DNA from: Aeromonas lacus
GTDB taxonomy: Bacteria > Pseudomonadota > Gammaproteobacteria > Enterobacterales > Aeromonadaceae
Direction: 5' to 3'
Assembly: GCF_000764665.1 (NCBI RefSeq)
Contig: NZ_JRGM01000138.1
Span: 1 to 64,000, forward strand
DNA: 64,000 nt
The notes beneath the pieces are model-generated. The model saw only the letters and a list, made by a program, of their open reading frames with translations. It made no database searches and was not told the origin of the DNA. The position numbers and the translations under genes were made by a program. Shown piece by piece: positions 8,166 to 11,051 of this stretch (position 1 is its first letter; each line of letters starts with the position of its first letter).

Positions 8166-8633
8166 TTACTCTTCGTCGCAGATTGGCGTGACAAACTCCA
8201 GCGCCATATCCCACGGTTGCTCGATCCAGGTGTCCTGCGGGATAGCAACTTCGAAATCATCCAGCAGCGGCTCACCCATCGGTTTGGCAAAGATGGCGAT
8301 GAACTTGGCTTTCGGGTAGAGATCGCGGATGGCCTTGGCGGTTGTGCCGGTGTCCACCAGATCTTCCACTACCAGCCAGCCTTCGCCGTCACCGGCAGTG
8401 GTCGCGCCCTTCACAACCACCAGCTCACGCTGGTTGTCATGGTCATAGCTGGAGATGCAGAGGGTCTCTACGTTGCGGATGCCGAGTTCACGGGCCATCA
8501 GGGCTGCGGGTACCAGACCACCGCGGCTGACCGCGATGATCCCTTTCCACTGGTTGGCAGGCAGTTGACGACGAGCCAGACGGCGAGCTTCACGTTGCAG
8601 GTTGTCCCACGACACATAAAACTTTTTCGGCAT
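8166..8633 (-). CDS. gpt: Xanthine-guanine phosphoribosyltransferase
   Basis: A 155-residue purine salvage enzyme that joins guanine, xanthine or hypoxanthine to PRPP. The PRPP-binding motif [12 protein letters not shown] is clear, as are [16 protein letters not shown] and [18 protein letters not shown] near the N-terminus. Length close to E. coli Gpt (152). Start at ATG 8633 matches the family; 12 extra in-frame residues upstream are not conserved-looking. A hairpin in its leader at 8680-8707 may modulate expression. Confidence 0.96.
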
Positions 8634-8679
8634 ATTATCGATCTCGAATAGTTGTACAAAAACAATCACTTAAAATAAT

Positions 8680-8707
8680 GGCATCCGAAAGTATCCTCTC
8701 GAATGCC
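8680..8707 (-). other. Hairpin in gpt leader, possible attenuator
   Basis: On the minus strand GGCATTCGA ... TCGGATGCC pairs over nine positions (one G-T wobble) around a ten-base loop, followed by the AT-rich ATTATTTTAAG, 46 bases before the gpt ATG. The weak U-run makes it a possible partial terminator only. The rest of 8708-9023 shows nothing I can assign; open frames there on both strands look random. Confidence 0.35.
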
Positions 8708-9023
8708 AATAAATGGCGGCTCTTGTCCGGCTGAATTCAGATTGCACTTGTTCCGCCTGAGGGATGACCTCGGCAGCAAATCTGATAGCAGTGGAAGCAA
8801 GGTGGACATATCCGGCGCTTGGGTCGATAAGAGTGCCAAAACCGCGGACAGGCTGTTGGGCCGATATGATAGCACCCTTTGCAGAGAAAATGCCTGGCAA
8901 ACGTATGCCAAATTCAGGAAAAATTGGCCTCTTCATCTCCAAATGACCCAACCAGAGAGCCGAACGGCAAATGTTGCCCCCCTCTCATCAGCAACGATTG
9001 GCACTCATTGGCAAACGACAGAT

Positions 9024-9063
9024 AAAAAAATAGCAGGGGGAGGATTTACCTCGCGCACCTGCT
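9024..9063 (-). terminator. Terminator of the small transcription unit
   Basis: On the minus strand AGCAGG ... GAGG-TAAAT-CCTC ... CCTGCT forms a two-part stem (9032-9063) followed by A and seven T residues (9024-9030). It lies 53 bases after the stop of the 29-codon ORF. Confidence 0.75.
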
Positions 9064-9115
9064 GCTTTGTCGTCTGCACCCAATCGGGTGACTTGCCCCT
9101 CAGGACAAGCTCGCC

Positions 9116-9205
9116 TTAGCGACGGCTGACGAAGGGATTAGGGTAGCTGAAACCCTGGGTATAGAGAGATGGGGCGAACCAATAGGTAGAGTTGCTGCCT
9201 GGCAT
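9116..9205 (-). CDS. 29-residue small protein, probable VcdP relative
   Basis: A 29-codon ORF, ATG to TAA. The peptide begins MPGSNSTYWFAPSLYTQG and ends YPNPFVSRR; aromatic-rich, soluble, with a basic SRR end and no membrane segment or signal peptide. AGGAG lies seven bases before the ATG (minus strand, about 9213-9217), an excellent ribosome binding site. It sits alone between gpt and pepD with its own terminator. V. cholerae VcdP, encoded inside the sRNA VcdRP, is also 29 residues and activates citrate synthase; that homology is recalled, not computed. The alternative is an unrelated leader or small regulatory peptide. Confidence 0.65.
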   Translation of the reverse strand: MPGSNSTYWFAPSLYTQGFSYPNPFVSRR

Positions 9206-9271
9206 CTTGAATCTCCTGATTGCTTAACAAGTTACGTACCTTTATGCGGGCTCAAATCCTTGAACGAACAC

Positions 9272-9317
9272 TCGGTTCCATGGAGGCGCACTTGCTTTGC
9301 TTCGGTTCCCTGGAGGC
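9272..9317 (-). repeat. Two direct 16-bp repeats, 30-bp period
   Basis: TCGGTTCCATGGAGGC (9272-9287) and TCGGTTCCCTGGAGGC (9302-9317) differ at one base. On the minus-strand transcript each reads GCCTCCA(G/T)GGAACCGA, carrying CCTCC, which is complementary to Shine-Dalgarno sequences, and a GGA triplet. Confidence 0.8.
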
Positions 9318-9356
9318 TTTCATCGTCATCCTGACGGGTGGCGAACCACGGGAGCT

Positions 9357-9384
9357 AATTTACCAGCTGGCACCGTAAACTCAA
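9357..9384 (-). promoter_or_regulatory. Candidate promoter of the small RNA
   Basis: TTGAGT (9379-9384), 16-base spacer, TAAATT (9357-9362) on the minus strand, just downstream of the CRP-type site. Prediction by inspection; a closer promoter is not excluded. Confidence 0.4.
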
Positions 9385-9390
9385 TCTTTT

Positions 9391-9406
9391 TGTGAAGCTC
9401 GTCACA
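9391..9406. promoter_or_regulatory. CRP (cAMP receptor protein) binding site
   Basis: TGTGA-AGCTCG-TCACA, both half-sites perfect with the canonical six-base spacer, flanked by T- and A-rich bases. It lies 185 bases from the small ORF start and 194 bases from the pepD start, so it could serve either. Its centre is about 48 bases upstream of the predicted small-RNA start. Confidence 0.7.
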
Positions 9407-9599: not shown

Positions 9600-11051
9600 G
9601 TGGCACAACTAAGTTCCTTGTCCCCCCAACTGATTTGGCATTTCTTCGAACAGATCTGCTCCATCCCCCACCCTTCCAAGCATGAAGCCAAGCTGAGTGC
9701 CTGGATCGTCCAATGGGCGCAAGGGGAAGGTCTGGCGGTCAAACAGGATAACGTCGGCAACATCATCATCAAAAAACCGGCAACCCCGGGGATGGAAAAC
9801 CGCAAGGCCGTGGTGCTGCAGGCCCACATCGACATGGTGCCGCAGGCCAACGCCGACACCAAACACGACTTCGCCAACGACCCCATCGATGCCTACGTCG
9901 ATGGCGAATGGGTCACTGCCCGTGGCACCACCCTGGGTGCCGACAACGGTATTGGCATGGCCGGTTGCCTGGCAGTGCTGGCTGACAAGACCATCAAGCA
10001 CGGCCCGCTGGAAGTGCTGCTGACCACTGACGAAGAGACCGGCATGACCGGCGCCTTCGGTCTGGAAGCAGGCTGGCTGGAGGGCGAAATTCTGCTCAAC
10101 ACCGACTCCGAAGAGGATGGCGAGGTCTATATGGGCTGCGCCGGTGGTGTCGATGCCAATATCCGCTTCCCGCTCGAGCTGGTTGATGCTGCGGAAGGTG
10201 AAGCATTCGAACTGGCCGTCAAAGGGCTGCGTGGCGGTCACTCCGGTTGCGACATCCACCGCGGCCGTGGCAACGCCAACAAGCTGCTGGTGCGCCTGCT
10301 CAAAGCAGCCGAGCCGCTCGGTATCCGTCTGGCCGAGATCCACGGCGGCACCCTGCGCAACGCCATCCCGCGCGAAGCACGTGCCACCCTGCTGGTACCC
10401 GCTGCCAGCGTAAACGAGTTCAAGGCGCTGGTTGACCGCTATACCGGTATCTACCAGACCGAGCTGGCCGCCACCGAGCCGAACCTGACTCTGCTGGTCA
10501 ACAGCGCCGCCAAACCGGCCAAGCTGATGAGCATCTCCCTGCAGCAGCGCCTGCTGGATGCCCTGATGGCCTGCCCGAACGGCGTGATGCGCATGAGCGA
10601 TGCCATGCCCGGCGTGACCGAAACCTCAACCAACCTGGGGGTCATCAAGACTCAGGATGGCGAAGTGTACGTCCAGTGCCTGATCCGCTCCCTGATCGAC
10701 TCCGGTCGCGAGAGCATTGAGCAGATGACCCGCTCCCTGTTCACGCTGGCGGGTGCCAGCTGCGAATTCACTGGTGCCTACCCAGGTTGGGCGCCGAATG
10801 TGGACTCCCCCGTCATGGCGCTGGTGCGCAACAGCTACCAGACTCTGTTCGGCACCATGCCCAACGTCATGGTGATCCACGCAGGTCTCGAGTGCGGTCT
10901 GTTCAAGAGCGCCTATCCGGAGTGGGACATGGTCTCCTTCGGCCCGACCATCCGTGGGGCCCACTCCCCTGACGAGAAAGTACACATCCCGGCAGTCGAG
11001 CGTTTCTGGCAACTGCTGGTTCACGTACTGGAAGCCATTCCGGCCAAGTAA
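9600..11051 (+). CDS. pepD: Cytosol non-specific dipeptidase (peptidase D, aminoacyl-histidine dipeptidase)
   Basis: A 483-residue M20-family metallodipeptidase that cleaves a range of dipeptides, often Xaa-His. Metal-site motifs are visible: VLQAHIDMVPQ (His and Asp), GADNGIGMAG (bridging Asp), LTTDEETGMTGAFGL (catalytic Glu and metal Glu), NTDSEEDGE and HAGLECGLF; near the C-terminus GPTIRGAHSPDE holds the last His. The start is GTG at 9600, seven bases after AAGGAG, giving a length like E. coli PepD (485). It stands alone between the small-RNA locus and a terminator. Confidence 0.96.
   Translation: MAQLSSLSPQLIWHFFEQICSIPHPSKHEAKLSAWIVQWAQGEGLAVKQDNVGNIIIKKPATPGMENRKAVVLQAHIDMVPQANADTKHDFANDPIDAYVDGEWVTARGTTLGADNGIGMAGCLAVLADKTIKHGPLEVLLTTDEETGMTGAFGLEAGWLEGEILLNTDSEEDGEVYMGCAGGVDANIRFPLELVDAAEGEAFELAVKGLRGGHSGCDIHRGRGNANKLLVRLLKAAEPLGIRLAEIHGGTLRNAIPREARATLLVPAASVNEFKALVDRYTGIYQTELAATEPNLTLLVNSAAKPAKLMSISLQQRLLDALMACPNGVMRMSDAMPGVTETSTNLGVIKTQDGEVYVQCLIRSLIDSGRESIEQMTRSLFTLAGASCEFTGAYPGWAPNVDSPVMALVRNSYQTLFGTMPNVMVIHAGLECGLFKSAYPEWDMVSFGPTIRGAHSPDEKVHIPAVERFWQLLVHVLEAIPAK

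Follow-up and report, generated by a model that had tools for sequence, protein, structure and literature searches.

The closest described system is VcdRP of Vibrio, which joins a riboregulator, VcdR, to a small protein, VcdP. According to the available sections of PMC8672173, VcdP has 29 residues and is encoded at nucleotides 104-193 of a 306-nt transcript that carries the VcdR seed at 223-232; VcdR represses ptsG, nagE, treB and ptsHI, for which it needs four consecutive cytosines past the ORF, and changing residues 15-18 of VcdP to alanine abolishes activation of GltA. The CRP box of vcdRP sits just upstream of its -35. An interdependency of VcdR and VcdP was argued there from the conservation of both seed and ORF in all species tested; the species aligned were Vibrio only, and term searches of the text turned up neither Aeromonas nor CsrA nor Shewanella. 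The paper also treats SgrS/SgrT, which resembles the gene described below: both join a small protein to an RNA linked to sugar, in a common functional field. In the portions available, PMC9731577 cites VcdRP and PMC9737408 concerns V. vulnificus. We found no description of an Aeromonas vcdP-like gene or of its leader in the open-licence literature, the only literature covered, which is therefore no proof of absence.

We analysed a 64,000-nucleotide stretch of Aeromonas lacus DNA (the window), in which the 966-base gap between the gpt start codon at 8633 and the pepD GTG at 9600 carries a stand-alone gene on the minus strand. Comparison of this gene across genomes finds homology to VcdP, common neighbours, a CRP box and covarying GGA hairpins; the seed is missing, as are three of the four GGGG target sites. 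Like its Vibrio counterparts, the gene has an ORF of 28-29 codons with an (S/A)(V/L)YT core, diverges from an adjoining pepD, carries a CRP box immediately ahead of the -35 and its own terminator, and shares the leader module. Unlike VcdRP, the Aeromonas gene lacks a Vibrio-type CCCC seed, and ptsG, nagE and treB lack GGGG; its 3' region is short and unconserved, its peptide scores under the VcdP cut-off, and its leader has two ANGGA elements against one in Vibrio.

Our best explanation, which we regard as reasonably probable, is that this is the Aeromonas vcdP: a stand-alone, CRP-repressible mRNA with a leader probably bound by CsrA, encoding a peptide that most likely activates GltA and having no Vibrio-type seed. 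We infer that the gene is transcribed, repressed by CRP, active on GltA and bound by CsrA. At high sugar and low cAMP, VcdP would most likely bind and activate the hexameric, NADH-inhibited citrate synthase GltA, and the leader would most likely bind CsrA via GGA-presenting hairpins. Because one GGA overlaps the Shine-Dalgarno sequence, CsrA would restrain VcdP translation until it is titrated. On our best reading, the VcdR seed is an accessory to a VcdP gene.

The flanking genes are gpt (8166..8633, minus strand), a phosphoribosyltransferase gene (Pfam PF00156), and pepD (9600..11051, plus strand), an aminoacyl-histidine dipeptidase gene (TIGR01893, 597.3 bits) that also flanks Vibrio vcdP. 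Between them, and on the minus strand throughout, the vcdP-like unit (9024-9350 as a whole) comprises CRP box, promoter, leader, AGGAG, 29-codon ORF and terminator. The sigma-70 promoter (9357..9384) consists of a -35 TTGAGT (9379-9384), a 16-nt spacer and an extended -10, TGG-TAAATT (TGGTAAATT, 9357-9365), which is found in 32 of the 35 Aeromonas loci; it points to a transcription start near 9350 and a leader of about 145 nt. AGGAG (9213-9217) stands ahead of the ORF in all 35 loci. The ORF runs from the ATG at 9205 to the TAA at 9116, encodes 29 residues (MPGSNSTYWFAPSLYTQGFSYPNPFVSRR) and is followed by a 52-nt 3' region (9064..9115), where the VcdR seed sits in Vibrio and none is found here, and by an intrinsic terminator, AGCAGG...CCUCCCCCUGCUAUUUUUUU, with a stem and T7 (9024..9063). 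Simple consensus scans picked up neither promoter nor terminator; the unit is supported by conservation across the genus of the ORF, AGGAG, the extended -10 and the CRP box, and by the constraint on the ORF. The fold of the whole transcript was no better than that of shuffles (z -1.26). Every part of the minus-strand unit named in a preliminary description of this DNA (promoter, leader, AGGAG, 29-codon ORF, T7 terminator and the 966-base gap) was located, and the CRP box is a part absent from its list. Upstream of gpt, also on the minus strand, a 13-pair terminator-like hairpin at 8679-8708 (TGGCATTCGAGAGGATACTTTCGGATGCCA, then TTATTTT) may be an attenuator or may mark where a transcript from farther upstream ends.

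The CRP box, TGTGACGAGCTTCACA (9391..9406, minus strand), is perfect, lies upstream of the -35 and is centred about -48 from the putative start. Of the 35 Aeromonas loci, 34 have a box at -200 to -204 that matches at least nine of ten consensus bases (10/10 in 28), and 4 of 1750 mononucleotide shuffles scored nine or more; the one locus without such a box, L037, has TGTGATTAAAGTCACA closer to the ORF. Among 48 Vibrionaceae loci, the best CRP site scored 9/10 in 21, 8 in 17 and at most 7 in 10. The preliminary description had named V. cholerae VcdRP as CRP-repressed. The box adjoins the -35 as it does in vcdRP, and repression itself is a prediction that we consider highly likely to hold in Aeromonas.

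The leader is the best conserved part of the Aeromonas locus: across 17 of the 35 representatives, mean pairwise identity was 0.83 in the leader, 0.80 in the ORF and 0.30 in the 3' region. Two pieces recur in it, a short hairpin with a GGA in or at its loop and the element CUCCANGGAACYGAG. We found CUCCANGGAA in 82 of 83 Aeromonas and Vibrionaceae loci, the exception being L055. Counting copies singly, its N was A 37 times, U 6, C 4 and G 2 in Vibrionaceae, and G 33, U 24, C 10 and A 2 in Aeromonas. This position therefore takes all four bases in both groups, which fits ANGGAN, given in the available sections of PMC7652899 as the element recognised by RsmE.

In the window, the leader opens with a 5' hairpin, GUGG-UUCG-CCAC (9338..9349, helix 1), with 88.6% of cells paired and a GC to AU change in two of 22 sequences, followed by the hairpin CGUCA-GGA-UGACG (9324..9336, helix 2), whose exposed GGA is the first predicted CsrA site. 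Two ANGGA copies follow, in the elements GCCUCCAGGGAACCGA (9302..9317) and GCCUCCAUGGAACCGAG (9271..9287), and then a hairpin GUUC-AAGGAUUU-GAGC (9250..9265, helix 4), paired in 100% of cells, with a CG to UA change in five of 22 Aeromonas sequences. The fifth GGA overlaps the Shine-Dalgarno sequence in AAUCAGGAGAUU (9210..9221). In the predicted fold, at least one of the ANGGA sites lies in a hairpin loop, and the GGA is well exposed at two of the five sites, helices 2 and 4 (unpaired 0.94 and 0.99); at the two elements and the Shine-Dalgarno sequence it is unpaired at only 0.46, 0.31 and 0.30, respectively. Five GGAs occur in 32 of 35 Aeromonas leaders, a count unremarkable in itself since 12% of shuffles reach five.

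Across 22 Aeromonas leaders, the four helices had 96.2% of cells paired and 16 two-sided change cells, against 4.6 in shuffles. For the GGA hairpin, alignment A5, with 16 variants from both groups hand-picked from 51 distinct segments (L036, L037 and L130, in which the first hairpin differs, were left out), had 64 of 64 cells paired and 10 two-sided changes, against 2.2 in shuffles, none of 500 of which reached as many. Alignment A7, made of 34 matches to leader model R1 in 27 loci, had 105 of 105 cells paired and 17 two-sided changes (shuffles, 3.3), although it was fitted to the structure and so leans towards it; alignment A6, in which the hairpin was misplaced, was left out. In L036 and L037, the third hairpin, GUUC..GAGC, is GCUU-A(U/C)GGAA-AAGC, an ANGGAN hexaloop.

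These features resemble those of CsrA-regulated leaders and of CsrB/RsmZ-type RNAs as described in the available sections of PMC7652899: several GGAs, some of them in short hairpin loops, ANGGAN hexaloops in L036 and L037, and a GGA on the Shine-Dalgarno sequence, as in CsrA-repressed glgC. The last of these is not shared by both groups: in Vibrionaceae, a GGA comes within 20 nt of the start codon at just 4 of 48 loci. Unlike CsrB/RsmZ-type RNAs, the Aeromonas leader belongs to a peptide mRNA, its CsrA binding is predicted, and it has no Rfam match at gathering score. PMC12298160 (sections available) reports a changed TCA-cycle gene set in a csrA mutant of V. alginolyticus and cites CsrA as a repressor of the TCA cycle, which agrees with CsrA restraining an activator of GltA. 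The open-licence literature yielded no CsrA binding data for a vcdP-like RNA. On the conserved hairpins and elements, we lean slightly towards control of this leader by CsrA.

The alternative with the best standing is that the leader is some other regulatory element, either the site of a different protein or an anti-Shine-Dalgarno switch of CUCC against GGAG. CUCC can pair with the GGAG of the Aeromonas Shine-Dalgarno sequence, the predicted window fold contains this pairing, and the element is conserved in sequence far past ANGGA. Yet the same element is present in Vibrionaceae, where 44 of 48 Shine-Dalgarno sequences (AAGGTG type) have no GGA; moreover, free variation falls precisely on the N of ANGGA, and the stem covaries around a GGA. 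We therefore regard a leader read by something other than CsrA as a serious but rather unlikely possibility.

Two further candidates for the leader were rejected. Rfam gave no match to leader or RNA at gathering score (PrrB_RsmZ reached 13.1 bits against 44), and the four sub-threshold matches were taken as chance. A conserved upstream peptide is ruled out because Vibrio loci vary by one base in the spacing of hairpin and element, a change that keeps no frame.

The base-pairing half of VcdRP is where Aeromonas departs from Vibrio. All 20 named Vibrio loci have CCCC within 60 nt past the stop codon, and all 28 Vibrionaceae loci of our first set have ACCCC (or A-pyrimidine-CCCC) within 70 nt, followed by TTGGAA or TTAGAA in 27. 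A Vibrio-type seed, with four cytosines about 30-40 nt past the stop, was found in 0 of 35 Aeromonas loci; four have CCCC ahead of the terminator, within GGGGCGCCCC. The target sites differ as well. Between -80 and +20 relative to the start codon, we found GGGG in Aeromonas in 0 of 14 ptsG, 0 of 15 nagE and 0 of 15 treB genes (GGGTGG in 1 of 15) and in 15 of 15 ptsH genes, where it may be just the Shine-Dalgarno sequence; the Vibrionaceae figures were 13 of 13 for ptsG, 15 of 15 for nagE, 2 of 9 for treB (GGGTGG in 9 of 9) and 14 of 14 for ptsH. These counts leave out genes whose start motif was unrecognised (ptsG of G599 and G008, ptsH of G245, treB of G133 and G395) as well as ptsG and treB of G545, and treB of G185, G197 and G245 gave no match at 1e-150. 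In L254 (G343:C40), a treB-type open frame is interrupted by one in-frame TAG.

Aeromonas thus lacks the Vibrio-type seed and most of the target sites, and therefore does not carry a dual-function RNA of the Vibrio kind; we think it highly probable that PTS regulation of the Vibrio type is absent from this RNA. The preliminary description had seen here the counterpart of VcdRP, linking sugar uptake to the TCA cycle. The VcdP homologue, the pepD neighbour and the CRP box uphold the peptide half of that idea, and with it the TCA side of the link; the missing seed (0 of 35) and the missing GGGG at three of four targets leave the VcdR half, and with it the PTS side, unsupported.

A dual-function RNA of another design could nevertheless exist, in which the peptide acts on GltA and a different C-rich stretch, the terminator arm CCUCCCCC or the leader CCUCC, pairs with PTS or other mRNAs. 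CCCC does lie inside the terminator hairpin in 29 of 35 Aeromonas loci and GGGG[GT] is kept in ptsH in 15 of 15 genomes, but the terminator CCCC is missing from six loci (L008, L012, L028, L029, L036 and L037), the last two of which are the most divergent, and ptsG, nagE and treB offer no GGGG. In duplex predictions, for which RNAduplex took no account of accessibility and just 60 shuffles were used, so that discrimination is weak, the Aeromonas 3' region had no preference for ptsG, ptsH, nagE or treB (mean Z -0.06 to 0.59), unlike the Vibrionaceae 3' region (mean Z -0.97 to -3.17), for which only ptsH was strong; there, 2-4 of 13 ptsG, 3-4 of 15 nagE, 4 of 9 treB and 13-14 of 14 ptsH duplexes ranked in the top 5%. 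The Aeromonas leader mildly favoured nagE, at a mean Z of -0.87 and with 3 of 15 duplexes ranked in the top 5%. Taken with the missing GGGG sites, we judge such a second base-pairing function unlikely, and a peptide gene without a Vibrio-type riboregulator remains our preferred reading.

The seed is variable within Vibrionaceae too. In a set of 20 loci picked for divergence, 15 had CCCC within 70 nt past the stop, 13 of them as ACCCC; it was missing from L126, L130, L132, the first tandem copy of L137, and L140, where CCCC lies farther on. L137 (G546:C1:731500-734800) is a tandem duplicate of vcdP and leader in which the second copy has the seed and the first does not, and genome G427 holds both the seedless L132 and L133, which has one. 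The seed has thus come apart from the peptide on more than one occasion.

The peptide itself is almost certainly a distant homologue of VcdP. The sole family matched by the window peptide was NCBIfam VcdP, NF053523.1 (E 9e-4, 18.9 bits), so that the alignment with VcdP proposed at the outset did find kinship, although at a score below the curated cut-off of 50 bits. Four further Aeromonas variants scored 17.2-24.0 bits (E 2.3e-5 to 3.1e-3) and matched no other family, and two Vibrio-type peptides scored 63.6 and 66.5 bits; in Vibrionaceae, the peptide was present at E 0.01 or better in 200 of 247 genomes. Pfam, PDB and phage-collection searches gave nothing useful. Position argues the same way. 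The ORF is adjoined by pepD in 35 of 35 Aeromonas loci, with gpt in 34, and by pepD in 28 of 28 Vibrionaceae loci of the first set, 19 of 20 named Vibrio loci and 16 of 20 in the divergent set, where pepD was not seen in the L127, L129, L132 and L136 stretches. Further out, gpt follows in all four of L122-L125 and, within stretches of 8 kb, at 9 of the 20 named Vibrio loci. The genes named vc2278 and vc2279 at VcdRP are, we take it, these neighbours. Most simply, the window peptide would be a VcdP orthologue that falls below the curated threshold.

The residues on which GltA activation depends are conserved. In the register of 29-residue Vibrio loci, from which that of V. cholerae itself is inferred, residues 15-18 are (A/S)VYT, and SLYT of Aeromonas aligns there; its T is invariant, and its Y is present in at least 90%, of 20 aligned Aeromonas and Vibrionaceae peptides. 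Three of these Vibrio loci, L122-L124, none of them named V. cholerae, have 29-residue peptides with CCCC 36-41 nt past the stop and fit the transcript layout in the available sections of PMC8672173. GltA of the Aeromonas genome shares 80% identity with a GltA from Vibrio and scores above the TIGR01798 cut-off. We therefore consider it likely that Aeromonas VcdP acts on GltA. The homologue could instead have shifted to another protein partner, as might be suspected from a 20-sequence alignment in which only M1, W, T and Y are invariant and from C-termini that differ (FVSRR in Aeromonas versus FGY in Vibrionaceae); with both the activation stretch and GltA so well kept, a change of partner seems improbable, and GltA remains the candidate we favour.

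Among 37 Aeromonas genomes, 35 have the ORF (G010 and G028 lack it), contrary to the absence from other aeromonads that the preliminary description named as a refutation; it was found in 0 of 38 genomes from four other genera of the same family. It is unannotated in an A. caviae record, where it is 79% identical to the window peptide; this record covers 53% of window positions 1-25000 at 83% identity. For 24 distinct 87-nt Aeromonas ORFs, leaving out the 27- and 28-residue variants, the nonsynonymous/synonymous ratio summed over pairs was 0.15 of the random-change expectation, and it was 0.16 in 29 distinct 84-nt Vibrionaceae ORFs; because the pairs are not independent, these ratios describe and do not test. 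The Aeromonas peptide is under purifying selection. A chance ORF inside a non-coding RNA gene, which might be entertained for a frame of just 29 codons in a gene known here from its sequence alone, we reject as extremely improbable, given nonsynonymous change at 0.15 of expectation and the match of the window peptide and other variants to the VcdP profile.

The leader reaches beyond Aeromonas and Vibrionaceae. When 394 genomes of the order were searched with model R1, 73 gave a match at E 0.01 or better. Among them are 11 genomes from family f2, with E values of about 3e-14 to 5e-14, and two from f11, with E values of 3e-8 and 5e-8. The f11 loci (G046 and G071) have gpt, peptide and pepD together; the G071 peptide scores 67.6 bits against NF053523.1, above the cut-off, and the 3' regions are TTCATCCCTA, with three cytosines. 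In the five of 11 f2 loci that were read (L288-L292), a leader nearly identical to that of Vibrio precedes a 27-residue peptide, MKNSVPxxPxFGDLYNxKFTYPRHxGY, with a terminator close behind, no CCCC and no pepD in the stretch. Kinship of the f2 peptide with VcdP leans mainly on the leader, because one f2 peptide scores only 13.5 bits (E 0.045) against NF053523.1.

Four f6 loci (E 3e-4 to 9e-3) carry unrelated aromatic-rich ORFs of 29-31 codons behind at least two leader elements or, as in L295, arranged as three leader-ORF units in tandem. The ORFs of L295 (G407:C3, minus strand) encode 31, 29 and 29 residues (MNYPFGYDVTLYGSW..., MNTQFEYQVRLYGTW... and MNAPFDYSVNLIGSW...), each behind its own CUCCANGGAA, and L297 lies close to a pepD homologue. 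The repeated elements and small ORFs with Shine-Dalgarno-like sites hint weakly at a kinship of f6 with the other loci.

R1 also matched G409 and, for a second time, G185. Of the R1 matches that were read, L298, L299, L300, L301 and L303 were set aside because no matching small-ORF arrangement was seen behind them. Class-wide, model R2 matched 15 of 369 genomes at E 0.001, one of them G000; the eight of the 14 others that were read all lie across long open frames and were taken as chance. L300 (G396:C14), from another genus of the same family, is a weak leader match with a GGA hairpin and CCTCCATGGAA, in which no small ORF was recognised.

These comparisons allow a broader, tentative proposal to which we give somewhat less than equal weight: that a class of tiny genes under CsrA control has the GGA-hairpin leader rather than the VcdR seed as its ancestral core, and that VcdRP is a VcdP gene to which a PTS-targeting seed was added later. 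If so, the class would comprise VcdP itself in Aeromonas, Vibrionaceae and f11, VcdP-like 27-residue peptides in f2 and unrelated aromatic-rich peptides of 29-31 residues in f6. SgrST, according to the available sections of PMC8672173, keeps the base-pairing part and has the ORF only in some species; Aeromonas keeps the ORF and the seed is missing. As the reverse of SgrST, it implies that evolution can part the peptide from the riboregulator. Aeromonas would offer a setting in which VcdP occurs naturally without VcdR and its activation of GltA can be studied apart from PTS repression, and the strongly conserved leader may put VcdP under CsrA in addition to CRP.
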